From positions 744,001-808,000 of the forward strand of contig NZ_CP107996.1 of NCBI RefSeq assembly GCF_036088315.1: a stretch of DNA of 64,000 nucleotides, given 5' to 3'. Numbering within the stretch: position 1 is the stretch's first letter; every line of letters begins with the position of its first letter. A program made the translations under genes and the position numbers. The stretch is from Streptomyces sp. NBC_00344. Lineage in GTDB: Bacteria; Actinomycetota; Actinomycetes; Streptomycetales; Streptomycetaceae. Positions 20,110-38,771 of the stretch are shown here, one piece after another. The notes under the pieces are model-generated. The model was not told the origin of the DNA. It saw only the letters and a program-made list of their open reading frames with translations, and made no database searches.

Positions 20110-20209
20110 GGCTTCCCCTTCGTGCAGTGCTTCCTCTGCTGTGCTGGGGTCTCCGTCGGCCGGCACAGAAGGGTGCCGGCCGGCGACGCGATTTATCTGG
20201 CGATGGCGA

Positions 20210-21292
20210 TCATCTCTTCCGTACGACGACGAAGTCCGCGAGCGCGATGAGCTGCGCCCGTACGCTTTCCGGCATCTCGACCCCGGCAAGTGCCTCGATC
20301 GCGATGGCGTGCTGCCTTCGGGCCTCATCCGAGGTCCATTCCCGGCCGCCCGCTTCCTCGATCAGTGCCGCCCTCGCCGCGAACTCCTCCTCGGAGAAGG
20401 TGTCGAAGTCATTGCTCTTGGCATCCGCCGCGAGCAGCTCGCCCAGTCGCTCGGATGCCCGTCCGCCCGCCGCCAGCGCGGCGACGACCGGCAGGGACTT
20501 CTTCCGCTGGCGCAGATCACTCCAGGTCTGCTTGCCGGTGGCCTCCGGGTCTCCCCAGATACCGAGCAGATCGTCGACGGCCTGGAAGGCGAGCCCGAGG
20601 TGGTAGCCGTACGACTCGAGCGTGTCTGCCGTCCGGTCGTCCGCGCCGCCGAGCACTGCCCCGATGGACACCGCGCAGGCGAGCAGCGCACCGGTCTTGT
20701 TGCCCTCCATCTCCAGGCACTCCTCCACCGTCACCCGTTCCCGGTGCTCGTAGGAGATGTCCTGGGCCTGACCGTCGATCAGTTTCCGGCTCGCGGTGGT
20801 GAGCCTGCGCGTCGCGCGCCCGGCCTCCGCGGTTCCGAGCTCCAGCAGGATCTCGTTGGCGAGTGCGAAGAGCGCGTCTCCGACGAGAATCGCCTGGGCG
20901 GGCCCGTGCACCTTCCAGACGGTGTCGCGGTGGCGGCGCTGCTCGTCGCCGTCCATCAGGTCGTCGTGCAGCAGCGAGAAGTTGTGCACGAGTTCCACGG
21001 CCACCGCGCCGGGGACTCCGACCTCGGCCGCGGCCCCCGCGGCCTCCGCGGACAGCAGCGCGAGCGCCGGGCGTACTGCCTTGCCGCCGTCGCCGTCGGC
21101 GGGTCGGCCATCGGCGTCGATCCAGCCGAAGTGGTAGGCGGCGACGGTGTCCATGGGCGGTGCGAGCCGGTCAACGGCAGCACGCAGCACCGGTGAGGAC
21201 AGGGTCCGTCCGCGCTCCAGAAGCGCGACAATGTCGACGGTGTCTGCGGCCGGGGTCACAGGCTCTCCTCTTGTTCCAGTAGCAATGCTCAT
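20210..21292 (-). CDS. Polyprenyl diphosphate synthase (hopanoid cluster)
   Basis: A 360-aa trans-prenyltransferase. The first Asp-rich motif is LLHDDLMDGDEQRR, with the second at AVDDLLGIWGD; KAVRPALALLSAEAAG precedes the first. It most likely makes farnesyl diphosphate for the HpnD step, though chain length cannot be read with certainty. The ATG at 21290-21292 overlaps the hpnE stop by 4 bp (ATGA); a GTG 11 codons later is an alternative. A 100-bp gap separates it from shc. Confidence 0.93.
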   Translation of the reverse strand: MSIATGTRGEPVTPAADTVDIVALLERGRTLSSPVLRAAVDRLAPPMDTVAAYHFGWIDADGRPADGDGGKAVRPALALLSAEAAGAAAEVGVPGAVAVELVHNFSLLHDDLMDGDEQRRHRDTVWKVHGPAQAILVGDALFALANEILLELGTAEAGRATRRLTTASRKLIDGQAQDISYEHRERVTVEECLEMEGNKTGALLACAVSIGAVLGGADDRTADTLESYGYHLGLAFQAVDDLLGIWGDPEATGKQTWSDLRQRKKSLPVVAALAAGGRASERLGELLAADAKSNDFDTFSEEEFAARAALIEEAGGREWTSDEARRQHAIAIEALAGVEMPESVRAQLIALADFVVVRKR

Positions 21293-22677
21293 GCCGCCTC
21301 CTGAAGCGGATGATCGTGGGGACGCCCGAGTCCGGAGAGCGCGGCCCCTGCGGCGCTGAAGCCACTGCGCACGGCGCCCTCCATGGTCGCGGGCCACCCT
21401 GTGGCGGTCCAAGCGCCGGCCAGATAGAGGCCGGGGGCCCGGGTGCGGGCCCCGGGACGCAACAGTCCTACACCGGGTGCGGGCGCGAATGTGGCGGTCC
21501 GCTCCCGGGTGACGAAGAAGTCCTGCACACCGGCGCCGCGCGCGGCCGGCAGCAGCCGCTCGAGCTCCGGGAGATAGCGCGCACGCAGTACGGAGACGGG
21601 CTCGTCGATGTCGTCGTCGGCCGCGGACTGGGACAGCGCCAGATACTGTCCGCCGCCCTTGAGGCCCGAGGCCGCGGTCCTGTCGAAGACCCACTGGACC
21701 GGGCTGCCCAGCGCGGCGAAGAAAGGCCTGCGAAGCACCTGACGGTCGTACACCACATGGATGTTGAGGATCGGCGACGTGCCGATCTCCAGCAGCCGGC
21801 CGGCCTCTTCGAGCGCGCCTTCGGGAAGCAGCGCATGTGTCTCGCGCTGCGGCACTGCGAGCACCACGGCGTCGGCGTCGAGGTTCTCGCCGTCGGTCGC
21901 GACTCTCCAGCGGCCGTCGTCCGTACGGGAGACGCCTGTCGCCCGGGTCCGCAGTTCGGTGCGCACACCCGCGGAGTCGAGGGCCTTGCGGGCGAGTGTG
22001 TCGTGGAGGTCGCCGAGCGGCACCTGCGCCCAGCCGATGTCGGCGGCGCCGGCATCCGAGAGCAGACCGGTCTTGAAGACCATCGCCGCGAGTCCGAGTG
22101 AGGCATGGGGCGCGGTGGCGTTGAGCGTCGCCACACCCACCAGGTCCCAGAGGGCCTCGATGGTGCGGTCGGACTGGCCGTGCCGTCGGAGCCAGGTCGC
22201 GAAGTCGACCTCGTCCAGGGCCGGGTCGGTGAGATCGAGCCGGCGGAGTGCGAGCGCGGCCCGGCCGACACTTGCCCGCTCGGCGAGCGAGAGATGCGGG
22301 TAGGTGGCGAGACTCGCGGCCAGGTGGAGCGGTACGGGCAGCGCGCTGCGGCGCAGCCGTCCGAGCCGCGGCCCGCCGGGCGGCGCGACATCGAGCACGG
22401 GCACGTCGAGCCGGTCCTGCAGGGGTGCCAGCGCAGCCCCTTCGACCCGGTCGAGGAACCAGCGGTACGCCGTGCAGCAGCGGAGGTAGACATGCTGGCC
22501 GTTGTCGACGGTGAGCTCGCCGCGCCGGAAGGAGAACGCGAGTCCCCCCAGCCGCGGGCGCCCCTCGAGCAGCGTCACCTGCACCCCCGCGTCGGTGAGT
22601 TCCAGCGCCGTCGTGACACCCGCCAGGCCTCCGCCGACCACCACCGCGTGTGCGGGCCGCACGCCGTCGCCCCTCAT
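21289..22677 (-). CDS. hpnE: Hydroxysqualene dehydroxylase HpnE
   Basis: A 462-aa FAD-dependent amine-oxidase-fold enzyme that reduces hydroxysqualene to squalene. The Rossmann motif VVVGGGLAGVTTALEL is at about residues 13-28, followed by LEGRPRLGGLAFSF and NGQHVYLRCCTAY, all hallmarks of HpnE. The C-terminal FAD-contact LYLAGAWTATGWPATMEGAV is complete. I use the ATG at 22675-22677 with GGAGGAGG upstream rather than an in-frame start 11 codons earlier. HpnC, D and E together replace a classical squalene synthase. Confidence 0.95.
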   Translation of the reverse strand: MRGDGVRPAHAVVVGGGLAGVTTALELTDAGVQVTLLEGRPRLGGLAFSFRRGELTVDNGQHVYLRCCTAYRWFLDRVEGAALAPLQDRLDVPVLDVAPPGGPRLGRLRRSALPVPLHLAASLATYPHLSLAERASVGRAALALRRLDLTDPALDEVDFATWLRRHGQSDRTIEALWDLVGVATLNATAPHASLGLAAMVFKTGLLSDAGAADIGWAQVPLGDLHDTLARKALDSAGVRTELRTRATGVSRTDDGRWRVATDGENLDADAVVLAVPQRETHALLPEGALEEAGRLLEIGTSPILNIHVVYDRQVLRRPFFAALGSPVQWVFDRTAASGLKGGGQYLALSQSAADDDIDEPVSVLRARYLPELERLLPAARGAGVQDFFVTRERTATFAPAPGVGLLRPGARTRAPGLYLAGAWTATGWPATMEGAVRSGFSAAGAALSGLGRPHDHPLQEAA

Positions 22678-22804
22678 ACGCCCTCCTCCGCGGCTCCGCC
22701 GTCCGGGCACGGACGGCAGGCAGTTGAAGTCAGGGACGCGTCAGCTCCCGGGGAGGTTGCCTGCTGTCCGGACGCCGACGGCAGCCGAGGTACGTCGAGA
22801 GGCA

Positions 22805-23755
22805 TCAGGCGCGCCGCCGGGCAGTCTGGCGGGAGATGGATCTGGTGTCGAGCCCGGAGAGCCCGCGCACCGCGACATAGGCCTTTTCCCTGCTGGGCAG
22901 CGACACCCGGCCGCGCAGAACGGCCTCGGGGTCGCGTTCGATGCGGTCGAGAAGACGTCGGTAGATACCCGCCATGGCAGCCACGCAGGCACCGCTGCGG
23001 CGGTCGAGATGGGGCAGCAGCCGGTAGCCGTCGGCGAAGAGCGACCTGGCGCGGCGGACCTCGAAGTGCACCAGCCCGGCGAAGTCCGCACCCGGGGGCG
23101 GCGTCGCGCTGCGAAAGCCGTCGGAGCAGCCGAACTTCGCCAGGTCCTCGGCAGGCAGATAGGTGCGTCCGTTGCTCGCGTCCTCACGGACATCCCTGAG
23201 GATATTGGTGAGTTGCAGGGCGAGGCCGAGGGTGTCTGCGTACTCGGAGGCCCGGTCGGCTCCGGGCGCGCCGGTCCCCTCACCGAAGATGCCGAGCGAG
23301 AGCCGTCCGATGGCGCCCGCGACGCAGCGGCAGTAGACCTCCAGGTCGTCCCAGGTCTCGTAGGTCTCGCCGCGTACGTCCATCAGTACGCCGTCGATGA
23401 GTTCATCGAGGCCGCCGAGCGGGATGGGGAAACGGCGCGAGGCGTCCGACAGTGCCACCGCGACCGGGTCCGTGTCGTCCTCGTCGACTGATCCCCGGCG
23501 GATCCGTCCGAGGAGTTCACGAGTCGACTCCAGACGTGTCTGCTTGACATCGGGGGCCAGCTCGCCGTCCCCGATGTCGTCGACACGTCGCGAGAACGCG
23601 TACAGCGCGGACATGGCCTGCCGCTTGTCGGCGGGCAGCAGTCTGATGCCGTACGCGAAATTGCGGGCCTGCTGCCCGGTCACGGCCTCGCAGTAGGTGT
23701 ATGCGGCCGCTACGGGCCCGGATACCGGCGTCTGTCCTTCCACGGTCCGGCTCAC
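22805..23755 (-). CDS. hpnD: Presqualene diphosphate synthase HpnD
   Basis: A 316-aa head-to-head prenyl synthase that joins two FPP to presqualene diphosphate. Both substrate-binding motifs are present: RRVDDIGDGEL (about residues 56-66) and TNILRDVREDASNGRTYLP. The start shares ATGA with the hpnC stop (23752-23755). Length is typical. A 127-bp gap with no gene follows before hpnE. Confidence 0.95.
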   Translation of the reverse strand: MSRTVEGQTPVSGPVAAAYTYCEAVTGQQARNFAYGIRLLPADKRQAMSALYAFSRRVDDIGDGELAPDVKQTRLESTRELLGRIRRGSVDEDDTDPVAVALSDASRRFPIPLGGLDELIDGVLMDVRGETYETWDDLEVYCRCVAGAIGRLSLGIFGEGTGAPGADRASEYADTLGLALQLTNILRDVREDASNGRTYLPAEDLAKFGCSDGFRSATPPPGADFAGLVHFEVRRARSLFADGYRLLPHLDRRSGACVAAMAGIYRRLLDRIERDPEAVLRGRVSLPSREKAYVAVRGLSGLDTRSISRQTARRRA

Positions 23756-24684
23756 CCCTCTCTACGCGTTCCTCGCAAGACGGCTCCCACCTCGCGCAGC
23801 AGGCTGAGCTTGGTGGGCTTCGGCGGTCCAGGAAGTACGTCGAACCCGGCGGCGGCGACCGCCCGCAGGGCGGCGCTTCCGCCGGCCACGAACCCGGCGA
23901 GCAGCAGCTTGAGTCTGCCGTGGACGCTACCCACCAGGGGGGTGCCTTCATTCAGCAGTTCCCGGGCACGTCCGGCCTCGTGGGCGACGAGTGCGCGTAC
24001 CGGAGCGCCGGCGCTCGGCGCAGCCAGGTCCGCCTCCGAGACATGGAACCGCTTCATGTCCTGGACGGGAAGATAAATACGGTCGCGGCCGAGGTCCTCG
24101 GCGACGTCCTGGAGATGCTCGACGATCTGCAGGGCGGTGCAGACGGCGTCGGAACGCCGGATCCGCTCGGGGCTCGCGGTACCGGTGATCTGGAGTACCA
24201 GGCGCCCGACGGGGTTGGCGGAGAGCTCGCAGTATGCGAGGAGGTCCTCGAAGGTCTCGTAGCGCCGCACCTTCTGGTCCTGGCGGTTGGCCTCGAGCAG
24301 GGCCAGGAACGGCTCGGGCGTGAGCGCACAGCGGCGGACCGAGGGCTCCAGCGCGCGCAGGATGGGGTGGCGCGGCGCCCCGCCCGATCCGGGCCGCGCA
24401 CCGGGGAAGACACGGTGCAGGTCGGCCTCGACGGCGTCGAGCATGGCGAGGCGGTCACCGGCCGTCTCCGGTTCCATGCCCAGCAGCCGGGCTTCGGTGG
24501 AGGCGGACGCGAGATCGCCGTCACCGATGTCGTCGACGAGGCGTGCGTAGCCGTACACGGCCATCAGGTCGTCACGCCAGGCGCGCGGCAGGAAGAACGG
24601 GGCCACCGGAAAGTTCTCGTCGGCAGCCTTGTCGAGCGTCGTGCGCGCATGAGGATCGGTGCCCGCGTCCCCGATTCCCGTCAC
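23752..24684 (-). CDS. hpnC: Hydroxysqualene synthase HpnC
   Basis: A 310-aa squalene-synthase-fold enzyme that turns presqualene diphosphate into hydroxysqualene. Motifs: YARLVDDIGDGDL near residues 46-58 and VEHLQDVAEDLGRDRIYLP. DENFPVAPFFLPRAWR at the N-terminus is characteristic of HpnC. The GTG at 24682-24684 overlaps the stop of a 21-codon upstream ORF (GTGA), so initiation may depend on coupling. First enzyme gene of the hopanoid operon. Confidence 0.95.
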   Translation of the reverse strand: MTGIGDAGTDPHARTTLDKAADENFPVAPFFLPRAWRDDLMAVYGYARLVDDIGDGDLASASTEARLLGMEPETAGDRLAMLDAVEADLHRVFPGARPGSGGAPRHPILRALEPSVRRCALTPEPFLALLEANRQDQKVRRYETFEDLLAYCELSANPVGRLVLQITGTASPERIRRSDAVCTALQIVEHLQDVAEDLGRDRIYLPVQDMKRFHVSEADLAAPSAGAPVRALVAHEAGRARELLNEGTPLVGSVHGRLKLLLAGFVAGGSAALRAVAAAGFDVLPGPPKPTKLSLLREVGAVLRGTRREG

Positions 24685-24746: not shown

Positions 24747-25070
24747 TGCCGTCACATCTCCCGTTCTACACTGCCGACTCAATACATCCCTTTTCGGACA
24801 CGCCGCGCGGACCTTCGAGCAAGGTGGCGCCGTTGGCGGCGCGGGGTCGCCCCCGTCCTCCCCGCGAATCAGCACCGGTACAGCTTACGTTGTACAACTA
24901 CCAGCCTGTCGGCGGGGCACGGCGCGCATTGTTACAACAATTCAATCGTCGCCAACCTTCCCCACTCCGGAGGGACTTGACGATCACTTGACTCTTTCGG
25001 AGCAGCGGGAGGGCGGCCGGTATTCGCCGTGCCCGCCTTTGCGGCGGTCCGTACCACCGGCACAACGGCA
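24747..25070. promoter_or_regulatory. Upstream region of the hopanoid operon with two TTGT/ACAA palindromes
   Basis: A gene-free, unusually AT-rich stretch between the ABC exporter operon terminator and hpnC. It holds GTTGTACAAC (24889-24898, perfect) and ATTGTT-AC-AACAAT (24928-24941), centred 41 bp apart, i.e. about four helical turns. No convincing -35/-10 pair could be fixed. These are candidate regulator sites for hopanoid expression. Confidence 0.45.
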
Positions 25071-25098
25071 GGCCCCGCCGGACAACTCCGGCGGGGCC
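25071..25098. terminator. Strong hairpin terminator after the ABC exporter operon
   Basis: Perfect 12-bp arms GGCCCCGCCGGA/TCCGGCGGGGCC with a CAAC loop, 15 bp beyond the stop of the ABC ATPase gene. It separates the surface-polymer operon from the hopanoid operon on the same strand. Confidence 0.85.
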
Positions 25099-25113
25099 CG
25101 TGAAGCGAATCGG

Positions 25114-25899
25114 CTACTTGCCGGTCTCCTTCTCGTACGCCTTGACGACCTCTTCGGTCGGCCCGTCCATCAGCAGTTCGCCCTTCTCCAGCCAGAGAAC
25201 GCGGTCGCAGGTGTCCCTGATCGACTTGTTGCTGTGGCTGACGAGGAAGACCGTGCCCGCCTCCTTGCGGAGCTCCCGGATGCGCTGCTCGGAGCGGATC
25301 TGGAACTTGCGGTCGCCGGTGGCCAGAGCCTCGTCGATCATCAGCACATCATGGTTCTTGGCCGCCGCGATGGAGAAGCGGAGCCTAGCCGCCATGCCCG
25401 ATGAGTAGGTCCGCATCGGCAGGGTTATGAAGTCGCCCTTCTCGTTGATGCCGGAGAAGTCGACAATCCCCTGGTAGCGTTCGCGGATCTCCTCACGCGA
25501 CATGCCCATGGCCAGGCCGCCGAGTATGACGTTCCGCTCGCCGGTCAGATCGTTCATCAGAGCCGCGTTGACTCCGAGCAGCGAGGGCTGACCGTCGGTG
25601 TAGACCTTGCCGCTCTCGGTCGGCAGCAGTCCCGCGATGGCCCGCAGCAGGGTGGACTTGCCCGATCCGTTGGATCCGATCAGCCCGATGGCCTCCCCGC
25701 GGTACGCGGTGAAGGTCACCCCGCGTACGGCATGGACCTTGCGGACACCGCGTGATGCCCCCTTGTCCTTGCCGACGATCCGGCTCAGCGCCGCCGTCGC
25801 GCCGCCCTTGGCGCCACCGCCGGCGTTGACGCGGTACACGATGTGCACCTGGTCGGCGATGACCGTGGGGATGCGTGCCAGATTCTTGTCCTCAGCCAC
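25114..25899 (-). CDS. ABC exporter ATPase, TagH/Wzt-like
   Basis: A 261-aa ATPase of the polysaccharide/teichoic-acid exporter class. Walker A is LIGSNGSGKSTLLRA, the signature is YSSGMAARLRFSIA, Walker B is VLMIDEALATGD, and the switch His is LVSHS. The N-terminal region (HIVYRV then SRGVRKVHAVRGV) is characteristic of TagH-type subunits. It lacks a C-terminal Wzt carbohydrate-binding domain. The GTG at 25897-25899 has GAGAGG upstream and overlaps the permease stop by 8 bp. It should power export of the polymer made by the genes upstream. Confidence 0.93.
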   Translation of the reverse strand: MAEDKNLARIPTVIADQVHIVYRVNAGGGAKGGATAALSRIVGKDKGASRGVRKVHAVRGVTFTAYRGEAIGLIGSNGSGKSTLLRAIAGLLPTESGKVYTDGQPSLLGVNAALMNDLTGERNVILGGLAMGMSREEIRERYQGIVDFSGINEKGDFITLPMRTYSSGMAARLRFSIAAAKNHDVLMIDEALATGDRKFQIRSEQRIRELRKEAGTVFLVSHSNKSIRDTCDRVLWLEKGELLMDGPTEEVVKAYEKETGK

Positions 25900-26821
25900 G
25901 GCCGTACCTCTCTTCAGCCTTCCAGAAGTACACGAAGCCCACGGCACCCATGAAGACCGCCCAGAACAGCGCGGCGAACCAGACGTGTGCAGGCAGGTTC
26001 GCGGGTCCGTATCCGTCGATCAGCGAGTAGCGGACGAGGTCCATGTAGACGGCCGCCGGGTTGTACTGCAGCACGTTGGCGATCCAGGACGGCTTGCCGG
26101 CCAGCATGACCGTGATGCTGAACATGACGCCCGATGAGTACATCCAGGTCCGCATGATGAACGGCATCAGCTGGGCGAGGTCCGGGGTCTTGCTGCCCAG
26201 CCTGGCCATGACCAGGGCCAGGCCCGTGTTGAAGACGAACTGGAGCGCCAGCGCGGGGATCACCATCAGCCAGGCGAGCGAGGGATAGCTGCCGAAGGCC
26301 ATCGCCACGATCACCAGGACGATCATGGAGAACAGCAGTTGCTGGAGCTGCTGGAGCGCGAACGAGATGGGCAGCGAGGCGCGGGGGAAGTGCAGCGCCC
26401 TCACCAGCCCGAGGTTCCCCGAGATCGCCCGCACTCCGGCCATCACGGAACTCTGCGTGAAGGTGAAGACGAAAACACCCGTGACCAGGAAGGGGATGAA
26501 GACGGCATGGGACATCCCCCTGCCGGAGTGCAGGATCAGGCCGAAGATCAAGTAGTAGACCGCGGCGTTGAGCAGCGGGGTCGCCACCTGCCACACCTGG
26601 CCGAGCTTGGCCTGGCTGTACTGGGCCATCAGCTTGGCCTGGGAGAAGGCCAGGATGAAATGGCGCCTCCCCCAGAGTTGCCTGGCGTAAGCGAAGAGGC
26701 CGGGCCGGGCACCGCTCACCGACAGGCCGTACTTGCCGGCCAGCTCGGCCGGGGACAGACCGTCGTCGGGAGACGGGCGCTCGCTCAGCGCGACCGCACC
26801 GTCATGGGTTGTGTCACTCAC
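25892..26821 (-). CDS. ABC exporter permease, TagG/Wzm-like
   Basis: A 309-aa inner-membrane protein with six predicted helices after a soluble N-terminus of about 55 residues. KLMAQYSQAKLGQVWQVATP and LLNAAVYYLIFGLIL are typical of ABC-2 polysaccharide permeases, as are FPRASLPIS and MRTWMYSSGVMFSI. With the ATPase it forms a lipid-linked glycan or teichoic-acid flippase. It follows the glycosyltransferase gene after 99 bp. Confidence 0.93.
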   Translation of the reverse strand: MSDTTHDGAVALSERPSPDDGLSPAELAGKYGLSVSGARPGLFAYARQLWGRRHFILAFSQAKLMAQYSQAKLGQVWQVATPLLNAAVYYLIFGLILHSGRGMSHAVFIPFLVTGVFVFTFTQSSVMAGVRAISGNLGLVRALHFPRASLPISFALQQLQQLLFSMIVLVIVAMAFGSYPSLAWLMVIPALALQFVFNTGLALVMARLGSKTPDLAQLMPFIMRTWMYSSGVMFSITVMLAGKPSWIANVLQYNPAAVYMDLVRYSLIDGYGPANLPAHVWFAALFWAVFMGAVGFVYFWKAEERYGRG

Positions 26822-26920
26822 AAGTTGAAACTTCCGTGTTCAAGATGCGCTGCCGGGTCGGGCGCAGGCACAGGTGGCCAGGCCCCAAAAGTACGCCCGA
26901 TGCTCTCAGACTCGAGCCTC

Positions 26921-27805
26921 TCAGACCACAGGAGGTCGGCCCAGTCGGGTCAGCCGCCAGACGGTACGCCATTTCATCGGCCGGCGGGGACCACAGGGCG
27001 TCGTCCAGCCCTCCTTGAACCCGCCGAACCAGGCCTTCAGCGCAGGTCCGGAGGGTCGGCGGAGCAGTGTGAGGACCATCCACACTCCGGGATAGACGGG
27101 TACGAGCAGCGCGGGGAGATTGCGGCGTGCCAGCCAGACGCGGTTGCGGGCCACCATCCGGTGGTAGACCGCGTGCCGGGACGGCGCTGTCGTCGGGTGG
27201 AACAGCACCATGTCGGCGCGGTAGTCGATCATCCAGCCGCCGTCGAGCGCCCGCCAGGCCAGGTCGGTCTCCTCATGGGCGTAGAAGAACTCTCCGGGCA
27301 GCGCGCCGACCTCGGCGACGACCCGGGACCGTACGGCGTTGGCGCCGCCGAGGAACGTGGTGACCCGCGAGGAGTGCATGGGGTCGGACGCGCGCAGCCG
27401 GGGGACGTGGCGGCGCTGGGTCACGCCGGTGTCCGGGTCGGCGATCCGGAAGCTGATGATGCCCAGCTCGGGGTCGGCGGCGAAGGCCTGCCGGCAGAGC
27501 TCGGCCGTGTCGGTGTTGGGCAGCAGCCCGTCGTCGTCGAGGAAGAGCAGTACGTCCACATCGCTGCCGGCCGGGCCGAATGCCTCGATGCCGACATTGC
27601 GGCCACCGGGGATGCCCAGGTTCTCGGGCAACTCGACGGTGCGTACGCCTGCGGGGACGTCCGGTACCGGGGCTCCGTTGCCGACCACGACGACCTCGAC
27701 GGGGTCGCCGTCCTGCTTGGCGACCGAGTCCAGCAGGGCTCGCAGCTCGTCGGGGCGGTTGCCCATGGTGATGATGACCGCGCCGACCTTCAGGGGGGCG
27801 GTCAT
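26921..27805 (-). CDS. Family 2 glycosyltransferase
   Basis: A 294-aa GT2 (GT-A fold) enzyme. Marks: AVIITMGNRPDELRALLDSV at the N-terminus, ENLGIPGGRNVGIEAFG, the nucleotide-sugar/metal motif LFLDDDG, and EFFYAHEETDLAWRALDGGW. A hydrophobic C-terminal segment (LLVPVYPGVWMVLTLL) suggests membrane association. The ATG overlaps the upstream transferase stop by 4 bp (ATGA). It probably adds sugars to the polyol-phosphate product of the cluster. Confidence 0.92.
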   Translation of the reverse strand: MTAPLKVGAVIITMGNRPDELRALLDSVAKQDGDPVEVVVVGNGAPVPDVPAGVRTVELPENLGIPGGRNVGIEAFGPAGSDVDVLLFLDDDGLLPNTDTAELCRQAFAADPELGIISFRIADPDTGVTQRRHVPRLRASDPMHSSRVTTFLGGANAVRSRVVAEVGALPGEFFYAHEETDLAWRALDGGWMIDYRADMVLFHPTTAPSRHAVYHRMVARNRVWLARRNLPALLVPVYPGVWMVLTLLRRPSGPALKAWFGGFKEGWTTPCGPRRPMKWRTVWRLTRLGRPPVV

Positions 27806-28581
27806 TTGAGCCTGCTCGAGGCCAGGATGGACACAAGGTGGAGCAGCGTCTGCAGGAGCGCGATACCGGCCAGCACGGCGACGCCGAGCCGGGAGAAGAA
27901 CAGATCGCCCCTGATGGAGTCCAGGATCGCCAGGACCAGGATCAGCAGAGAAGCCTCGATACCCAGGACCAGCCGGTGGAACTTCAGTGCCGCGGCCGCC
28001 CTGCGGGCCAGCGCCACCCCGGACGAGCGCGGCTCGGAGGCCGCCTCCTTGACCGGCGGCAGGCCCTGCTGGTGACGGGCGACACCGACGAGGTCGGTCT
28101 CGGCCTTGATCAGGATGGCACCGAGTGCGGCAAGGGTGCCGAGGAAGGCCCACAGCCAGTCGATCCGTCCGGAGCCCCACAGATCGGAGGCGCGCAGGCC
28201 GAAGCCGACCAGCACCGCGGCGTCGCACAGATACGCGGCGACACGGTCCAGATACACCCCGGCCATCGAGTACTGCTTCTTCCAGCGGGCGATCTCGCCG
28301 TCGACGCAGTCGAAGAGCAGATAGAGCTGGACCATCACCACGCCGAGTACGGCGCCGGTGATTCCCGGAACCAGGAGGGCGGGGGCGGCGAGGGCTCCGG
28401 CGACCGTCATCACATAGGTGACCTGGTTGGGCGTGACCCGCGTGTTCACCAGGTGCCGGTCGATGCGCAGCGAGACCTCGCGCATGTAGAGGCGGCCTCC
28501 CCAGTGCTCGCCACTCCGCCGGTCCTTGACGCCCGGGGGGTGAACGACCGGGCGGAGTTCAGCTACCGATGGCTTTTGCAT
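27802..28581 (-). CDS. CDP-alcohol phosphatidyltransferase family protein, last motif Asp missing
   Basis: A 259-aa integral membrane protein. The family motif DxxDGxxAR(x8)GxxxDxxxD is seen as DCVDGEIAR (residues 91-99), Gly108 and Asp112, but residue 116, normally the catalytic Asp, is Ala (LDRVAAYLCD). A further Asp is at 120. TPNQVT upstream is also typical. Five or six hydrophobic segments follow. The ATG at 28579-28581 overlaps the dehydrogenase gene by 23 bp. It should transfer a phospho-alcohol from a CDP-activated donor, unless the missing Asp makes it inactive or a binding partner. Confidence 0.88.
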   Translation of the reverse strand: MQKPSVAELRPVVHPPGVKDRRSGEHWGGRLYMREVSLRIDRHLVNTRVTPNQVTYVMTVAGALAAPALLVPGITGAVLGVVMVQLYLLFDCVDGEIARWKKQYSMAGVYLDRVAAYLCDAAVLVGFGLRASDLWGSGRIDWLWAFLGTLAALGAILIKAETDLVGVARHQQGLPPVKEAASEPRSSGVALARRAAAALKFHRLVLGIEASLLILVLAILDSIRGDLFFSRLGVAVLAGIALLQTLLHLVSILASSRLK

Positions 28582-29620
28582 AGTCGGCGTAAGCGTCCTT
28601 GATCTGGTCTGCGGACAGGTTGAGGTGCTCCAGGATCGTGAAGCGTCCCGGGCGGGTCTGGGGTGCGTACTCGACGGCCTGGACGAACTCGTCCACGCTG
28701 AAGCCGAGTTCGGCGGGCAGTACGGGAAGGGAGTGCCTGCGCAGCACATCGGCGAAGAGTCCGGATTCCTCCGGCGCGCCCCGCAGGTGCATCGCGAAGG
28801 CGGCTCCCAGACCGACCTGCTCGCCGTGGCTCCCGGCGCGCTCGGGGAAGAGCAGGTCGAAGGCGTGACTGATCTCATGGCAGGCGCCGGACGACGGGCG
28901 GGTGTCCCCGCTGATCGAGATCGCGATACCGGAGAGCACGAGACCCTCGGAGAGAACCATCAGGAACTCGTCGTCGCCGACCCCGCCGGGGTGGCGCAGG
29001 ACGGCCTCTCCGGCGGTACGGGCCATGGCGGCCGCAAGACCGTCGATCGCCTCGCCGTTGACCTCGTGCGACAGCTCCCAGTCGGCGATCGCCGAGATGT
29101 TGGAGATCGCGTCTCCGATGCCGGAGCGGATGAAGCGGTCCGGTGCGTCCCTGATCACATCGAGGTCGATGACGATGGCGATCGGTGTGGGGACGCCGTA
29201 GGAGCCGCGGCCGTTGTCGTTGTCCAGCGTGGACACCGGCGAGCAGATGCCGTCGTGCGAGAGGTTGGTCGCGACAGCGACCATCGGAAGCCCGACCCGG
29301 GCCGCCGCGTACTTGGCCACGTCGATGATCCTGCCGCCGCCGAGGCCGACGACCGCGTCGTAGCGCTTGCCCTTGATGCCGTCGGCCAGCGTGACCGCCG
29401 CGTCGATGGTGCCGTCGGCGACCGCGTACCAGTCGGCGCCCGGCAGCACCGGGGCGAGCCGTTCGCGCAGCGCCTGTCCCGAGCCGCCGCTGACCGCGAA
29501 GGCGAGCTTCCCCGAGGCGGAGATCCGCTGGTCGGCCAGGAGGCTCGCGAGATCGTCCAGCGCGCCGCTGCGGATGTCGACGACGACCGGGGAGGGGATG
29601 AGCCTCGTCAGTACTGGCAC
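28559..29620 (-). CDS. sn-glycerol-1-phosphate dehydrogenase family (EgsA/AraM-like)
   Basis: A 353-aa iron/zinc-dependent alcohol dehydrogenase-fold protein. NAD(P) binding is shown by VVGLGGGRIIDVAKYAA; metal/substrate residues lie in TNLSHDGICSPVSTL, GACHEISHAFDLL and GSHGEQVGLG. These are the marks of the archaeal G1P dehydrogenase and bacterial AraM group, which reduce dihydroxyacetone phosphate to sn-glycerol-1-phosphate; a related phospho-ketose substrate is possible. The GTG at 29618-29620 overlaps the nucleotidyltransferase gene by 13 bp. In context it would make the polyol phosphate for CDP activation. Confidence 0.85.
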   Translation of the reverse strand: MPVLTRLIPSPVVVDIRSGALDDLASLLADQRISASGKLAFAVSGGSGQALRERLAPVLPGADWYAVADGTIDAAVTLADGIKGKRYDAVVGLGGGRIIDVAKYAAARVGLPMVAVATNLSHDGICSPVSTLDNDNGRGSYGVPTPIAIVIDLDVIRDAPDRFIRSGIGDAISNISAIADWELSHEVNGEAIDGLAAAMARTAGEAVLRHPGGVGDDEFLMVLSEGLVLSGIAISISGDTRPSSGACHEISHAFDLLFPERAGSHGEQVGLGAAFAMHLRGAPEESGLFADVLRRHSLPVLPAELGFSVDEFVQAVEYAPQTRPGRFTILEHLNLSADQIKDAYADYAKAIGS

Positions 29621-30345
29621 GCGATCTCACGGCCCTTCGCGAGGTCCTCGTGGTTGTCGATCTCGACCCACTTCAGATCGCCGATCGGCGCCACGTCGAC
29701 GCGGAAACCACGGTTGACCAGCTCCTGGTAGCCGTCCTCGTAGTAGAGGTCGGGGTCACGCTCGAAGGTGACCTTCAGGGCGTCCGCCAGCTCCTCGGCG
29801 GCATCGGGCTCGATCAGGGTGACCCCGATGTACTCGCCGGTGGCCCCGGCCGGGTCCATCAGCTTGGTGATGGAACGGACGGCACTGGCGTCGTCCGTGA
29901 TGACCTTCATCTCCTCGTCGGCGAGGTGCTTCACCGTGTCCAGAGCCAGAATGATCCGCTGGCCCTGGCCTCGTACGGCGAGCAAGGTCTTCTCGACGGA
30001 GACCGGGTGCACGGTGTCGCCGTTGGCGAGGATCACGCCCTGCTTGAGGACGTCACGCGCACACCACAGGGAGTAGGCGTTGTTCCACTCCTCCGCTTTG
30101 TCGTTGTCGATCAGGGTGAGCTTGACGCCGTACTTCGCCTCGAGATCGGCGCGGCGCGCGTACACGGCCTCCTTGCGGTAGCCGACGACCACCGCGACCT
30201 CGGTGAGTCCGACCTCGGCGAAGTTGGCCAGCGCGATGTCGAGGACGGTCCGCTCACCGTCCACCGGGACCAGGGCCTTCGGGAGCGTGTCGGTGTAGGG
30301 GCGCAGACGCCGGCCGGCGCCGGCCGCCAGTACGAGGCCGATCAT
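29608..30345 (-). CDS. NTP (CTP?) transferase for a phospho-alcohol
   Basis: A 245-aa nucleotidyltransferase of the GT-A-like fold. The N-terminal signature is GLVLAAGAGRRLRPYTDTLP followed by KALVPVDG; ILANGDTV is the metal-binding region. Similar single-domain proteins activate inositol phosphate, choline phosphate or sugar phosphates. Beside a G1P-dehydrogenase-like gene and two CDP-alcohol transferases, a CTP:phospho-alcohol cytidylyltransferase is the best guess. The ATG at 30343-30345 has AAGGAG upstream and overlaps the DUF5941 stop (ATGA). Confidence 0.88.
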   Translation of the reverse strand: MIGLVLAAGAGRRLRPYTDTLPKALVPVDGERTVLDIALANFAEVGLTEVAVVVGYRKEAVYARRADLEAKYGVKLTLIDNDKAEEWNNAYSLWCARDVLKQGVILANGDTVHPVSVEKTLLAVRGQGQRIILALDTVKHLADEEMKVITDDASAVRSITKLMDPAGATGEYIGVTLIEPDAAEELADALKVTFERDPDLYYEDGYQELVNRGFRVDVAPIGDLKWVEIDNHEDLAKGREIACQY

Positions 30346-32117
30346 GCGGGTTCTCCTTCGTCGTGTACAGCGGGTGCTCCGGAGGACACCCAGAATCGGA
30401 TGCTTTCCGCGAGCACCACAAGCGCCACGACCACGGCGAACACCGTGAGCGCGACCGTGAAGTCGGTGTTGTCGGTGTGCTGCGCCGTCAGAACGGCGGC
30501 GAGTACGGCCACCACCAGTGTCCGGCCCTCGTGGCCGCCGACCGTGCGCACCAGCCACTGGGGCGGCGCGCCGGTGCCGCCGCGGATGCGGTACACCGTG
30601 TCGTAGTGATGGTAGGCGACGGCGGAGACCAGTCCGAATGCCGCGGGCAGGGCCCCCTGCACATCGGAGCGGGCCGCGAGGACCAGGACCGTCAGGTACT
30701 CGGCGGCGCGGAACACCGGCGGCACGAGCCAGTCGAGCGAGCCCTTCAGGGGGCGCGAGACGGCCACGCCGGCGAGGACGCCGTACACGGCAGCGGCGGC
30801 AACCGGCCACCAGCTGCCGACGGGCGCGGCGGCCGATGTGGCGACCACCACGGCGCCGCCCACGAACGCGATCACCGGCAGGGCGCTGCGCGGTCCGCGG
30901 ACGAGACGGCTGAAGATCTGCGCGATCGGGCCCGAGTCGGCGAGATCGGCAAGCGCCCCGGCCGCCCGTTCGGTGCGGGTGGCACGGCGGGTCAGGGAGC
31001 GCAGCACCCGGCCTGCCGTGGTGTAGCAGGCGGCGAGCGCGCAGCCTATGAGCAGCGCGTAGAAGACGATCCGCGGGGTGGTCACCGCGGTCAGTACCGC
31101 GATCATCGCCCAGCGCTCGCCGATCGGCAGCACGATCATGCGGCGTACCCAGACCGTCCAGCCGACGCTGTCGAGCTTGTCGGAGAGCGCTGCCGTCGGG
31201 CTCGTGTTGGCGGCCGCGTCGTGGTTCGCCTCGTTGAAGGAGAAGTCCACGACGTGGCGGCAGGTCTGCAGCACCATCGCGCCGAGAGCGAGCGCCCAGA
31301 TGTCGTCTCCGCCCCGGGCCGCGCCCAGCGCGAGGCCGGCGTAGTAGGCGTACTCCTTGGCCCGGTCGAAGGTCGCGTCCAGCCAGGCACCGAGCGTCGA
31401 GTACTGGAGCGAGTACCGGGCGAGCTGGCCGTCCGTGCAGTCCAGGACGAAGGAGCAGAGCAGCAGCACACCGGCGGCGACATAGCCGGCCCGGGTACCG
31501 GTCGCCGCACAGCCGGCCGCGATCAGCGCGGTGAGCAGGGAGGCGGTGGTGACCTGGTTCGGGGTCAGTCCCCGGCGGGCGCACCAGCGGGCGATGTACC
31601 GCGAGTAGGGGCTGATGCAGTACGTGGTGAAGAAGCCGTCGCGGGACTTCACCGCCGTACGCAGCCGCACGGCCTCGTCGTCGACAGCGGCGACGGCGGC
31701 CCTGGCCTCGTGCCTGGACTGCGGGTCAGAGGGAACGGCGGCGACCAGGGTGCCGAGCTCGGGCCGCTGTACGGCGGTCCCCCGGCTGTCCAGCGCCGCG
31801 GCGAGAACGTCCGGGGACGGTTCGGCGACGGTCAGTGCACGGTTGAGCGCGGGGCGTGCCTCCGGCTGGACGGTGAGTGCGCCGGGGACCGCGGCCGCGG
31901 CGAAGCGGGGGTCGGTCAGCGCGAGCCGCAGCGAGTGGAGGTGGCCGACGAAGCGGGTGTCCACGACCGCGACGCGCTCGTCGGCGGGGGCCGCTATGAG
32001 CAGCTTGGCGGTCTCTTCGGCCTCGGCTGCGGTGCATACGTCAAAACCCAGCGACCGCAGATCGCCCTCGAGCGACGATCCGGGTACCGGCGCACCGGTG
32101 AGGATGGCGGTCGACAG
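30342..32117 (-). CDS. DUF5941/CDP-alcohol phosphatidyltransferase, apparent CTG start
   Basis: A 591-aa membrane protein. Residues about 1-150 form a soluble domain beginning STAILTGAPVPGSSLEGDLR; then comes the CDP-alcohol transferase motif LDCTDGQLAR...LGAWLDATFD with all four Asp present (about 226, 229, 247, 251), preceded by TPNQVT, and then a C-terminal set of membrane segments (the DUF5941 part). The first ATG/GTG/TTG in frame is GTG 31964, which has no ribosome site and would cut into conserved-looking sequence. The frame is open back to a CTG at 32115-32117 with AAGGAG 9 nt upstream, so I place the start there. First gene of the polymer operon, divergent from galE. Confidence 0.8.
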   Translation of the reverse strand: MSTAILTGAPVPGSSLEGDLRSLGFDVCTAAEAEETAKLLIAAPADERVAVVDTRFVGHLHSLRLALTDPRFAAAAVPGALTVQPEARPALNRALTVAEPSPDVLAAALDSRGTAVQRPELGTLVAAVPSDPQSRHEARAAVAAVDDEAVRLRTAVKSRDGFFTTYCISPYSRYIARWCARRGLTPNQVTTASLLTALIAAGCAATGTRAGYVAAGVLLLCSFVLDCTDGQLARYSLQYSTLGAWLDATFDRAKEYAYYAGLALGAARGGDDIWALALGAMVLQTCRHVVDFSFNEANHDAAANTSPTAALSDKLDSVGWTVWVRRMIVLPIGERWAMIAVLTAVTTPRIVFYALLIGCALAACYTTAGRVLRSLTRRATRTERAAGALADLADSGPIAQIFSRLVRGPRSALPVIAFVGGAVVVATSAAAPVGSWWPVAAAAVYGVLAGVAVSRPLKGSLDWLVPPVFRAAEYLTVLVLAARSDVQGALPAAFGLVSAVAYHHYDTVYRIRGGTGAPPQWLVRTVGGHEGRTLVVAVLAAVLTAQHTDNTDFTVALTVFAVVVALVVLAESIRFWVSSGAPAVHDEGEPA

Positions 32118-32293: not shown

Positions 32294-32356
32294 TCCATGC
32301 CTCGCCCGACAAACGCGGGCCCGCCGTCCCCACGGTCCTCTAATAGGGTGGCCGAT

Positions 32357-33340
32357 ATGACGTGGCTGATCACAGGTGGTGCGGGGTACATCGGGGCGCA
32401 TGTGGCGCGGGCAATGACGGACGCCGGTGAGCGGGTCGTCGTCCTCGACGATCTCTCCAGCGGTGTCGTCGAGCGCCTGCCCGAAGGCATGCCGCTGGTC
32501 CGCGGCTCGGTCCTGGACCGCGGGCTGCTCGACGAGACCCTTGCCCGGCACGAGATCAGCGGTGTGGTGCATCTCGCGGGACAGAAGCAGGTCGGGGAGT
32601 CCGTCGAGCAGCCGCTGCGCTACTACCGGGACAACGTGCACGGGCTGACGGTGCTGCTGGAGGCCGTGGTCGCCGCCGGGGTGCGGAACTTCCTGTTCTC
32701 CTCGTCGGCCGCCGTCTACGGCGTACCCGACGTGGAACTCATCACCGAAGCGACCCCGTGTCTGCCCATCAACCCCTACGGCGAGACGAAACTCGCCGGT
32801 GAGTGGCTGGTGCGGGCCACCGGCAGGGCTCACGGGCTGTCGACCGCCTGTCTGCGCTACTTCAACGTGGCGGGCGCGGGCGCCCCCGAGCTGGCGGACA
32901 TCGGCGTGTACAACGTCATACCGATGTTCTTCGACCGGCTGACGCGTGGCGAGGATCCCCGGATCTTCGGCGACGACTACGCCACCCCGGACGGCACCTG
33001 CATCCGCGACTACATCCATGTCGCCGATCTCGCCGACGCCCATCTCACGATGGCCCGGAAGGTCGCGGGCTCGGACAGCCCCGGCGATCTCACGGTCAAC
33101 ATCGGTCGCGGCGAGGGCGTGTCGGTACGTGAGCTGGCAGATCTGGTGGGCGAGGTCTCCGGGCTGCCGCTGTCACCCGTGGTCGAGCCCCGGCGGCCGG
33201 GGGATGCGGCGAAGGCCGTGGCCTCCGCCGCGCTGATCAGCGGCGAGCTCGGCTGGGAAGCGAAGCGCGGAGTGCGCGAGATGGTCGAGTCGGCCTGGGA
33301 GGGCTGGTGCCTGCGACACCCCGGGGCAGGCCGGCACTGA
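32357..33340 (+). CDS. galE: UDP-glucose 4-epimerase
   Basis: A 327-aa extended SDR enzyme interconverting UDP-Glc and UDP-Gal. NAD motif TGGAGYIGAHV near the N-terminus, substrate SSSAAVYG, catalytic YGETK (Tyr-x3-Lys as YGETK), RYFNVAGA and DGTCIRDYIHVADLADAH are all as expected. ATG 32357 is used; a GTG three codons earlier is an alternative. It is divergent from the polymer operon and may supply UDP-Gal for it. A hairpin terminator follows. Confidence 0.95.
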   Translation: MTWLITGGAGYIGAHVARAMTDAGERVVVLDDLSSGVVERLPEGMPLVRGSVLDRGLLDETLARHEISGVVHLAGQKQVGESVEQPLRYYRDNVHGLTVLLEAVVAAGVRNFLFSSSAAVYGVPDVELITEATPCLPINPYGETKLAGEWLVRATGRAHGLSTACLRYFNVAGAGAPELADIGVYNVIPMFFDRLTRGEDPRIFGDDYATPDGTCIRDYIHVADLADAHLTMARKVAGSDSPGDLTVNIGRGEGVSVRELADLVGEVSGLPLSPVVEPRRPGDAAKAVASAALISGELGWEAKRGVREMVESAWEGWCLRHPGAGRH

Positions 33341-36274: not shown

Positions 36275-37048
36275 ATGGAGCCGCAGCTGCAGCACACCGT
36301 CGCCGACGGAGCCGCCACCGTCGTCATCGACAACCCCGCCAAACGCAACGCCATGACGGCCGGGATGTGGAGTGCCCTTCCCCCGCTCCTCGACCGGCTG
36401 GCGGCCGATCCGGCCGTGCGCGTGCTGGTGCTGACCGGCGCGGGCAACACCTTCTGCGCGGGCGCGGACATCTCGGCCCTGCACGAGACCGCCGAGAACG
36501 CCCAGGCTCTCGCGGTGCGCGCCGAGGAAGCTCTCGCCGCGTTCGCGAAGCCCACACTGGCCGCCGTGCGCGGTTACTGCGTGGGAGGCGGCTGCCAGCT
36601 GGCCGCCGCGTGCGATTTCCGGTTCGCCGATGAGGGCGCGTCCTTCGGGGTGACACCCGCCAGACTCGGCATCGTCTATCCGTCACCCTCCACCCGCAGA
36701 CTGGTCGCCCTGGTGGGTCCAGCCACCGCCAAATACCTGCTGTTCTCCGCCGAGTTGATCGGCTCGGACCGGGCACTGCGCACCGGCCTCGTCGACGAGG
36801 TGCTGCCCGCGAGCGGGCTCGGCAAGCGGGTGGCGGAGTTCAGCCGGGTGCTCGTCTCACGCTCGCAACTGACTCAGGCGGCTGCCAAGGAGTTCGCCCA
36901 GGGCCGCGTGGACCGCGACGCGTACTGGTCGCAGCAGGCCGGCGCGGCCGGCGACAGGGCCGAGGGTGTCGCCGCTTTCCTTGAGCGCCGTGAGCCCCGC
37001 TTCACCTGGAGCCCCGCGCCACCCGCCCCGGGGACTACTCCAGGATGA
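36275..37048 (+). CDS. Enoyl-CoA hydratase/isomerase family protein
   Basis: A 257-aa crotonase-fold protein. Oxyanion-hole segments are GAGNTFCAGADISAL and GYCVGGGCQLAAACDFRFA. The usual catalytic Glu positions following PxxxLG are not obvious in PARLGIVYPSPSTRRL, so activity could be isomerase or hydrolase rather than hydratase. ATG 36275 lies 7 nt after a TAGCAT -10-like box, with no ribosome site, consistent with a leaderless mRNA. The 3' end overlaps the convergent DJ-1 gene by 14 bp. Confidence 0.9.
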   Translation: MEPQLQHTVADGAATVVIDNPAKRNAMTAGMWSALPPLLDRLAADPAVRVLVLTGAGNTFCAGADISALHETAENAQALAVRAEEALAAFAKPTLAAVRGYCVGGGCQLAAACDFRFADEGASFGVTPARLGIVYPSPSTRRLVALVGPATAKYLLFSAELIGSDRALRTGLVDEVLPASGLGKRVAEFSRVLVSRSQLTQAAAKEFAQGRVDRDAYWSQQAGAAGDRAEGVAAFLERREPRFTWSPAPPAPGTTPG

Positions 37049-37670: not shown

Positions 37671-37680
37671 GGGCTGCCTT

Positions 37681-38661: not shown

Positions 38662-38771
38662 AACGGTCATCCTTGACGATGCCACTCATGGCCGCAATGA
38701 CGAACAACCCACCTTTCCTGCCATCAACACCGGCCTTCCCATGCGTACCGACCAGTCGGTAACATGTGGCC

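Follow-up and report, generated by a model that had tools for sequence, protein, structure and literature searches.

A conserved seven-gene operon of Streptomyces as a candidate pathway for an exported glycerol-phosphate glycopolymer

Described routes to glycerol-phosphate envelope polymers

Lipoteichoic acid of Bacillus is a polymer of Gro1P (PMC7086022), and B. subtilis AraM makes glycerol-1-phosphate (G1P) (PMC4244643). Given these reports, the initial annotation of the locus described here overstated its case in calling the stereochemistry of its product unusual for bacteria. In Streptomyces and relatives, lipoteichoic acid is described as polyglycerolphosphate, and clear LtaS orthologues are reported absent from the same group (PMC3196553). 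Actinobacterial G1P dehydrogenases (G1PDHs) have so far figured in arguments over how the lipids of archaea and bacteria came to differ, the lipid divide, as in PMC6431249.

We analyzed a 64,000-nucleotide stretch of a Streptomyces genome (the window) and identified a seven-gene operon. We give it about an even chance of encoding the synthesis and export of a teichoic-acid-like glycopolymer or glycolipid with glycerol phosphate, built from sn-glycerol-1-phosphate. Like Bacillus wall teichoic acid synthesis (TagD, TagB/TagF, TagGH), it would involve CDP-activated glycerol phosphate, cytoplasmic assembly and TagGH-type export, and LCP genes occur near 11 of 37 related actinobacterial loci. Unlike the Bacillus pathway, the operon encodes G1PDH-like and LicC-like NTP enzymes and no TagD, and has membrane proteins of the CDP-alcohol phosphotransferase (CDP-AP) fold, with no clear TagB/TagF in this genome; its units are predicted to be sn-1, those of Bacillus being sn-3. 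The Gro1P configuration predicted for its unit is that of the LtaS pathway, but the donor would be cytoplasmic CDP-glycerol, whereas LtaS uses phosphatidylglycerol outside the cell. Bacillus AraM, which acts with PcrB, belongs to the same bacterial G1PDH family; the operon lacks PcrB, and its G1P would go to CDP-glycerol rather than to an ether lipid. The archaeal CDP-APs IPCT-DIPPS and AF2299 differ from the first operon protein, CAPT1, in which the cytidylyltransferase domain is degenerate (a separate NTP enzyme is encoded) and an extra pseudo-CDP-AP domain, DUF5941, is carried. Finally, the pneumococcal capsule genes gtp1-gtp2-gtp3, reportedly described by Wang in 2010, provide CDP-2-glycerol. 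Both systems would pair a reductase with a cytidylyltransferase for glycan glycerol phosphate, but the operon lacks a Gtp3-type HAD gene and has a TagGH-type exporter and two CDP-AP homologues.

Operon structure and conservation

ORF calling and domain searches placed seven genes on the minus strand at 25114-32117 (Table 1). Five of the six junctions overlap (by 4, 13, 23, 4 and 11 nt), bearing out the overlapping cluster first annotated; the sole exception is a 99-nt spacing between the GT2 and TagG genes. The hairpin beyond tagH, initially called a strong terminator, is indeed strong (-41.5 kcal/mol with flanks, z -4.1; none of 200 shuffles equally stable), but it has no T-tract downstream and is absent from the terminator scan's list, so that a terminator role is only likely. 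The galE-type neighbor is retained in four same-genus loci (L020 to L023) and might possibly belong to the pathway.

Table 1. Features of the operon and its borders
Feature	Position	Strand	Description
DUF5941/CAPT1 gene	30342-32117	-	591 aa from probable CTG start; PF01066 and PF19365 over cut-offs
CAPT1 N-terminal domain	31683-32114	-	model residues 1-144; IspD/PntC-type cytidylyltransferase fold, degenerate
CAPT1 CDP-alcohol phosphotransferase domain	30981-31649	-	residues ~156-378; all four signature Asp present
DUF5941 domain	30345-30971	-	residues 382-590; predicted degenerate CDP-AP fold, without signature
NTP transferase (nucleotidyltransferase)	29608-30345	-	245 aa; LicC/IPCT-like
EgsA/AraM-type dehydrogenase	28559-29620	-	353 aa; PF13685
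CAPT2, CDP-alcohol phosphotransferase homologue	27802-28581	-	259 aa, ATG at 28581; PF01066
GT2 glycosyltransferase	26921-27805	-	294 aa
TagG/Wzm-type ABC-2 permease	25892-26821	-	
TagH/Wzt-type ATPase	25114-25902	-	
GC hairpin after tagH stop	25069-25100	-	14-bp stem; probable terminator without T-tract
Divergent galE-type epimerase	32348-33340	+	operon neighbor

The dehydrogenase and CAPT2 genes overlap on the same strand in all 81 sampled same-genus genomes (this one included), and the gene order recurs in other actinobacterial classes; the arrangement is therefore not chance, and the operon is probably present throughout Streptomyces. Beyond the genus we surveyed 37 actinobacterial loci chosen for the dehydrogenase, comprising L016, L017, 16 of the 22 loci of a first sample and 19 of the 20 stretches of a second. 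Of 38 genomes outside the genus that gave a match, 20 supplied the second sample. We left out L024, L027 and L146 (same contigs as L016, L017 and L035), L018 and L019 (stretches without the dehydrogenase) and L042 to L045 (other phyla). One search scored 7,997 candidates and listed 120.

The NTP transferase gene precedes that of the dehydrogenase in 33 of the 37 loci (L029, L031 and L147 have no match, and L028 begins at a contig end). CAPT2 is found in 28, GT2 in 24, a CAPT1 homologue in 23 and TagH in 21. Near seven of the nine loci without CAPT2 there is another candidate CDP-polyol user (PIPS-like, LicD, or CAPT1 plus a TagF-type protein); no such user was found in L029 and L145, where the contigs end within about 3.3 kb. 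The glycerophosphotransferase half of a TagF query matched only in L151 and L152, and L033, L034 and L147 matched over the GT2 half only. Co-conservation of a make-and-export set, on which the first proposal had been staked, thus holds across the 81 genomes and in the 37-locus survey. A literature search returned one synteny listing, with no function assigned to the operon.

Predicted activities and competing readings

The dehydrogenase matches PF13685 (E 2.2e-29, over cut-off) and, by sequence scores, is far closer to G1PDHs than to most glycerol dehydrogenases. D170, H248 and H265, kept in 52 of 52 sequences, occupy what we take to be the Asp-His-His metal-ligand positions of M. jannaschii G1PDH, mapped by alignment. 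The original EgsA/AraM-type assignment stands in these respects, but the score against the NCBIfam G1PDH equivalog PRK00843 (229.7 bits) falls below the cut-off of 413, so the protein is a G1PDH relative rather than a certified equivalog. The NTP transferase is most similar in the PDB to the cytidylyltransferase LicC (1jyk, E 2.7e-14 over residues 3-106), followed by 4jd0 (E 1.7e-8) and mannose-1-P guanylyltransferases (E 3e-7). Its best NCBIfam models are nucleotide-sugar enzymes (AglF at 69.8 bits, archaeal GlmU, RmlA), all far below cut-off, and it scores 51.1 bits against the IPCT model, also below cut-off. By homology, it is probably a CTP:polyol-phosphate cytidylyltransferase.

These matches bear on two alternatives. 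It is unlikely that the dehydrogenase acts on another phospho-ketose or a cyclitol, giving a CDP-alcohol (or NDP-sugar-like product) based on something other than glycerol. The resemblance of the NTP transferase and both CAPT proteins to inositol-phosphate cytidylyltransferase/DIPP synthase points that way, as do the nucleotide-sugar models and the sub-cut-off G1PDH score, but the dehydrogenase is far more similar to G1PDHs, with which it shares the SxDGxxSP and HGEQ segments, than to most other Fe-ADH relatives, and several loci have PF04464, whose family name refers to CDP-glycerol transfer, near related genes. We consider it somewhat less probable again that the product of the pair is CDP-2-glycerol or a different CDP-polyol, rather than CDP-sn-glycerol-1, and serves to decorate a glycopolymer with a side group, in the manner of gtp1-gtp2-gtp3. 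A related dehydrogenase-NTP pair in Lachnospiraceae (L045), with a HAD phosphatase after it and a PF04464 transferase before it, resembles those genes, but the HAD gene of that set has no equivalent among the operon ORFs of the window.

The mechanical ORF start of CAPT1 is GTG at 31964 (540 aa); the true start is probably CTG at 32117, as first annotated, because the N-terminus is conserved in L020 and L023 and GGAG lies upstream. The N-terminal domain, identified by fold match only, has no LAAGxGxR motif and matches no Pfam family. In Foldseek, the CAPT1 model matched AF2299 with E 4e-8 and CHPT1, ranked much lower, with E 0.02. All eight residues of the CDP-AP signature D1xxD2G1xxAR..G2xxxD3xxxD4 (defined in PMC4634129) are present, as they are in 18 of the 37 other loci; L018 has SR in place of AR. 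In five of the 37 (L136, L137, L148, L150 and L153) the signature is gone from the CAPT1 homologue, so CAPT1 cannot be the transferase everywhere; CAPT2 in these loci keeps His.

DUF5941, on which we found no paper, is predicted from its modeled structure to repeat the CDP-alcohol-transferase fold once more in degenerate form, with the catalytic motif gone, which corrects the domain's place in the gene first annotated as DUF5941/CDP-alcohol transferase. Its translation contains no DxxDGxxAR. We used structure prediction because hhalign against CAPT1 was weak (P 0.03-0.09, probability 0.7-1.5%), and on those values we rejected internal duplication as a conclusion from sequence alone. Ten other loci encode DUF5941 as a separate gene; the search behind the domain evidence listed 120 of 357 matches.

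CAPT2 passes the PF01066 cut-off and has D1 to D3, with D4 replaced by Ala. Across 66 CAPT2 sequences (at least four from repeated contigs), the position of the catalytic fourth aspartate is Ala in 38, His in 28 and Asp in none; L152, with His, was missed by the search pattern. CAPT2 is therefore a homologue and not a canonical CDP-AP, and the two CDP-alcohol transferases first annotated, though both PF01066 homologues, are not equivalent. Changing the catalytic aspartate to Asn nearly abolished activity in a PIP synthase (PMC4634129). Standalone CAPT2 paralogues (L080 to L085) gave no functional lead from the few neighbors examined. New here are the fold predicted for DUF5941, a CDP-AP subfamily that lacks the catalytic aspartate, and the five loci in which it is CAPT1 that has lost its motif and CAPT2 that keeps His.

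The exporter genes match PF00005 and PF01061 over cut-off, supporting the proposed TagGH-like homology, although the ATPase scores 170.7 bits against PRK13546, below the equivalog cut-off of 320. A second TagG elsewhere in the genome is 63% identical. GT2 is weakly similar to MftF and GlfT1. Galactan exporter models score 154 and 55 bits against the exporter proteins, both below cut-off, and in L041 and L142 the dehydrogenase-NTP pair has GlfT2 as a neighbor; the galactofuranan reading that these likenesses suggest is not supported here because no UDP-galactopyranose mutase over cut-off was found in the genome.

That the cluster modifies hopanoids with a glycerol-phosphate head group seems very improbable. 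HpnC and squalene-hopene genes, identified by eye, adjoin the operon in the window, and HpnC lies downstream in L020 to L023 (across a larger gap in L023), but the stretches retrieved around these genes from the other loci examined contained no HpnC match, and TagGH-type exporters carry polyprenyl-linked glycans. As a general feature the link is rejected because HpnC adjoins the operon only in same-genus loci among those examined. Archaeal-type ether lipid synthesis, with G1P feeding prenyl transfer, has the G1PDH-like enzyme and the lipid-divide literature (PMC6431249) in its favor but is scarcely credible and is rejected because PcrB/GGGPS is absent from 81 of 81 genomes (the control search was positive for 7 of 14 genomes, B. 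subtilis and archaea among them), and the dehydrogenase is tied to a nucleotidyltransferase.

A proposed glycerol-1-phosphate pathway and its meaning

Part of the case for the dedicated glycerol-1-phosphate make-and-export pathway first proposed stands: the co-conserved set, the G1PDH likeness and the exporter homology. From the genes, their co-conservation, motifs and predicted folds, which were observed or computed, we infer the substrates and product. The EgsA/AraM-like enzyme would reduce DHAP to sn-glycerol-1-phosphate, and the LicC/IPCT-like enzyme would use CTP to form CDP-glycerol of sn-1 configuration. CAPT1 would then transfer glycerol phosphate from CDP to an acceptor in the membrane, probably a sugar carried on a polyprenyl lipid or glycolipid, with the DUF5941 pseudo-domain perhaps forming an extra membrane module like that in CDP-APs with lipid acceptors. 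CAPT2, without the catalytic base here, may be a partner or have altered chemistry; the His form of other lineages is probably a transferase itself. Judging by family, GT2 would add a sugar and TagGH would flip the product outward, where LCP proteins encoded elsewhere in the genome could attach it to peptidoglycan.

Several observations weigh against this pathway: the sub-cut-off score of the dehydrogenase, the nucleotide-sugar models of the NTP enzyme, the CAPT1 homologues without the signature, L029 and L145, the Foldseek ranking of CAPT1 and the second TagG. In addition, the genome has no clear TagF (PF04464 only at E 7.1e-4; of the 81 genomes, 77 have a PF04464 match). Long chains would thus call for some other polymerase, and the addition of just one glycerol phosphate is an equally good fit. 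TagD (TIGR01518) is over cut-off in none of the 81 genomes, and weaker matches in 58 (69 bits in this genome) keep conventional CDP-glycerol conceivable.

More speculatively, and with considerable doubt, we suggest a second, so far unrecognized route to Gro1P chains, in which a cytoplasmic G1PDH-cytidylyltransferase pair supplies CDP-activated sn-glycerol-1-phosphate for membrane transfer by CDP-AP-fold proteins and TagGH export. For Streptomyces and other actinobacteria this would be the missing substitute for LtaS, and for many bacterial G1P dehydrogenases called "archaeal-type" it would be the true function. If so, the reciprocal decay of CAPT2 (without its base in Streptomyces) and CAPT1 (without its site in five other loci) would imply that the two form one complex, with the active site in either half, and Gro1P chains of lipoteichoic acid stereochemistry would arise by a mechanism like that of wall teichoic acid. 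The operon, found in 81 of 81 same-genus genomes, is a concrete candidate for what lies behind polyglycerolphosphate lipoteichoic acid without LtaS. It may help to explain teichoic-acid-like polymers in Streptomyces without the usual enzymes, and actinobacterial G1P dehydrogenases would gain an ordinary role in the cell envelope.

The operon and its genomic setting

The seven-gene cluster proposed in the initial annotation was borne out, with all seven genes identified on one strand (see table). Coding regions overlap at five of the six junctions, and the GT2 gene is separated from tagG by 99 nt. The first gene probably starts at a CTG codon; the first ATG/GTG/TTG leaves only 540 aa. The strong terminator said to close the operon was recovered in part, as a hairpin with a 14-bp stem (z -4.1) lies 3' of tagH, but no T-tract comes after it. 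The small hairpin upstream of tagG is of a kind whose frequency is within chance expectation; it could attenuate expression of the exporter.

Features of the operon, its surroundings and related loci (coordinates are those of the window unless a fetched locus, L, is named; G000 is the window's own genome)
Feature	Coordinates	Strand	Length	Content
Operon	25114-32117	minus		seven genes, in transcription order below
Gene 1, CAPT1-DUF5941	probable start at 32117	minus	591 aa	CDP-alcohol transferase domain (CAPT1), PF01066 + PF19365/DUF5941
Gene 2, NTP		minus	245 aa	nucleotidyltransferase
Gene 3, dehydrogenase		minus	353 aa	EgsA/AraM-type, PF13685
Gene 4, CAPT2		minus	259 aa	CDP-alcohol transferase homologue
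Gene 5		minus		GT2
Genes 6 and 7		minus		TagG/TagH-type ABC exporter
Small hairpin	26895-26911			between GT2 and tagG, followed by TTTT
Hopanoid/squalene genes (by eye)	18109-24684			directly downstream of operon; squalene-hopene cyclase, polyprenyl synthase, HpnC/HpnD-type synthases, HpnE-type oxidase
Two DJ-1/PfpI-like genes	37035-38685	minus		side by side; larger with AraC-type C-terminus (by eye)
TagD-like cytidylyltransferase	L104:5546-6794 (G000 ~736.5-737.8 kb, 6-7 kb before window)			69 bits to TIGR01518, below cut-off
Second TagGH-type pair	L103:7783-10402 (G000 ~4.27 Mb)			GT2-type gene alongside
Two sulfotransferase-type genes	L024:10760-13024 (Nitriliruptorales)			between GT2 and TagGH; one confirmed by Pfam
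Consecutive PF04464 transferase, dehydrogenase, NTP and HAD phosphatase genes	L045:8610-12444 (Lachnospiraceae polysaccharide cluster)			LicD nearby

Elsewhere in this 7.06-Mb genome, the TagD-like gene adjoins an apparent further CDP-alcohol transferase (by eye), and the two are possibly a separate CDP-glycerol system. The TagG of the second exporter pair is 63% identical to that of the operon. PF04464 has only a marginal match in the genome, and eight LCP domains were found. In S. roseosporus, tagGH is reported to be controlled by the neighbouring tagR, and loss of tagG to impair sporulation and cause plasmolysis (PMC10269677). Those genes probably correspond to the other copy, not to the operon's TagGH, and the second pair may be their homologue.

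A constant enzyme pair with changing partners

A neighbourhood survey found co-conservation: the dehydrogenase and CAPT2 both occur in all 81 sampled Streptomyces genomes (own included), where their alignments lie on one strand and overlap by 38-44 nt, and the order CAPT1-DUF5941-NTP-dehydrogenase-CAPT2-GT2 recurs in several classes. DUF5941 was found in 13 of 296 genomes sampled over the phylum, and in all nine Streptomyces genomes listed within that sample. Within the class, 60 of 246 genomes, spread over 25 of 103 genera, carry a dehydrogenase orthologue (E <= 1e-40); Streptomyces accounts for 22 of these genomes. A collection scan seeded with two dehydrogenases from outside the genus (L016 and L017) yielded 22 loci, from Nitriliruptoria, Solirubrobacterales/Thermoleophilia, Frankiales, Acidothermales, Nocardioides and others, four of them from other phyla.

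Across 37 distinct actinobacterial loci from outside the genus, the NTP adjoins the dehydrogenase in 33, and CAPT2 is present in 28, GT2 in 24, TagH in 21, TagG in 18, an LCP ligase in 11, a PIPS-like CDP-alcohol phosphotransferase (CDP-AP) in five and LicD in two. The CAPT1-DUF5941 protein has a match in 23, of which 18 keep an intact CAPT1 signature; glycerophosphotransferase domains of the TagF type occur in two loci (L151, L152). Given the sulfotransferase-type genes in the Nitriliruptorales locus, the product may have a sulfated form there.

The NTP and dehydrogenase form a constant core, and the likely consumer of their product differs between loci. Among the nine loci that lack CAPT2, a canonical PIPS-like CDP-AP lies directly downstream in L140 and L141 and ~6 kb off in L035 and L039; in L041 and L142 the candidate is a LicD-type gene, with GlfT2 and genes of the TagG/TagH type alongside, and in L151 a TagF-type gene with CAPT1/DUF5941. 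No candidate consumer was seen in L029 and L145, whose contigs stop within ~3.3 kb. Outside the 37, L019 carries CAPT1-DUF5941, TagGH and a GT2-TagF fusion, and L018 combines CAPT1-DUF5941-NTP and TagGH with a gene that matches PF04464 weakly. The Lachnospiraceae gene run resembles the pneumococcal CDP-2-glycerol genes. Four of the 81 Streptomyces genomes (G362, G372, G298 and G314; loci L076, L077, L078 and L079) encode a second NTP-dehydrogenase pair, flanked by rne-like and rplU-rpmA-obg genes (identified by eye); in L079 the contig ends within the NTP gene. In G362 and G314, TagF-type genes lie <=10 kb away. Taken together, these partners favour a CDP-polyol as the putative product of the pair, and the association of PF04464 with CDP-glycerol favours glycerol as the likely polyol.

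The dehydrogenase scores 148 bits (phmmer) against 4rgq, the sn-glycerol-1-phosphate dehydrogenase (G1PDH) of M. jannaschii, 145 against 3ce9, deposited as a glycerol dehydrogenase, 127 against 5fb3, and 44-63 against the other glycerol dehydrogenases listed; its score is below the NCBIfam G1PDH cut-off. D170, H248 and H265, at the metal-ligand positions of G1PDH, are retained in 52 of 52 sequences as mapped through the phmmer alignment. The closest solved relative of the NTP is LicC, a CTP:phosphocholine cytidylyltransferase (residues 3-106 aligned); the NTP also aligns over residues 4-236 with 4jd0, an inositol-phosphate cytidylyltransferase, and mannose-1-phosphate guanylyltransferases come next (E 3e-7). 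Counting against a polyol-phosphate role, it matches AglF, archaeal GlmU and RmlA best among the NCBIfam models, followed by the inositol-phosphate enzyme (51 bits), all far below cut-off. In the 81 Streptomyces genomes PcrB was not found, and TagD was never above its curated cut-off (weaker matches in 58).

Reciprocal decay of the two transferases

CAPT2 proteins form a coherent subfamily that starts EHWxGRLYxR and retains the first three aspartates of the CDP-AP signature (D1-D3), lacking the catalytic fourth (D4). All 30 Streptomyces loci fetched, the one in the window among them, have Ala at that position, as do six standalone paralogues; the other actinobacteria examined have His, except L154 (Ala). 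Overall, 66 sequences give Ala 38, His 28 and Asp 0. The standalone paralogues (L080-L085; six Streptomyces genomes) are ~50-52% identical, and the fetched stretches hold no other operon genes, save a weak TagH-like match in L084. In a FastTree phylogeny of 43 sequences, L154 groups with His relatives (support 0.99), whereas the Streptomyces Ala sequences form a clade of their own (support 1.0); this separation suggests that Ala arose twice. In PIP synthases, changing D4 to Asn is reported to leave almost no activity (PMC4634129; PMC9385802).

In a single family, five loci (L136, L137, L148, L150, L153) have a recognizable CAPT1 homologue that has lost its DxxDGxxAR site and with it the entire CDP-AP signature, with DUF5941 alongside and a His-type CAPT2 kept. 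Judged by these motifs, that family and Streptomyces display reciprocal decay. Given the site loss in CAPT1 where His-type CAPT2 is kept, and the D4 loss in CAPT2, the working transferase is probably CAPT1 in Streptomyces, and CAPT2 of the His type probably works as one too.

Predicted envelope product

The transferase architecture of the operon is novel. The only published account of the gene set that we found, in literature coverage mostly outside subscription journals, is the synteny listing (crtB, tagH, tagG, araM, GT2, CDP-alcohol transferase) in a study of 929 Streptomyces genomes (PMC13118837). Actinobacterial G1PDHs are reported to belong to a bacterial clan of deep origin (PMC6431249).

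The initial annotation proposed a dedicated polyol-phosphate envelope pathway with a stereochemistry unusual for bacteria. That proposal is supported in part. A dedicated glycerol-phosphate envelope pathway is our best reading, although we give it only an even chance. Its stereochemistry would be less exotic than proposed: the product would match lipoteichoic acid (LTA), which in B. subtilis is reported to be built of sn-glycerol-1-phosphate units, with sn-glycerol-3-phosphate in wall teichoic acid (PMC7086022). The LTA of Streptomyces hygroscopicus is reported as polyglycerolphosphate, in an account that describes LtaS orthologues as missing and supports overlap with the teichoic acid route (PMC3196553). 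If this reading is true, a CDP-glycerol-1-phosphate pathway would yield LTA-type stereochemistry through a cytoplasmic route.
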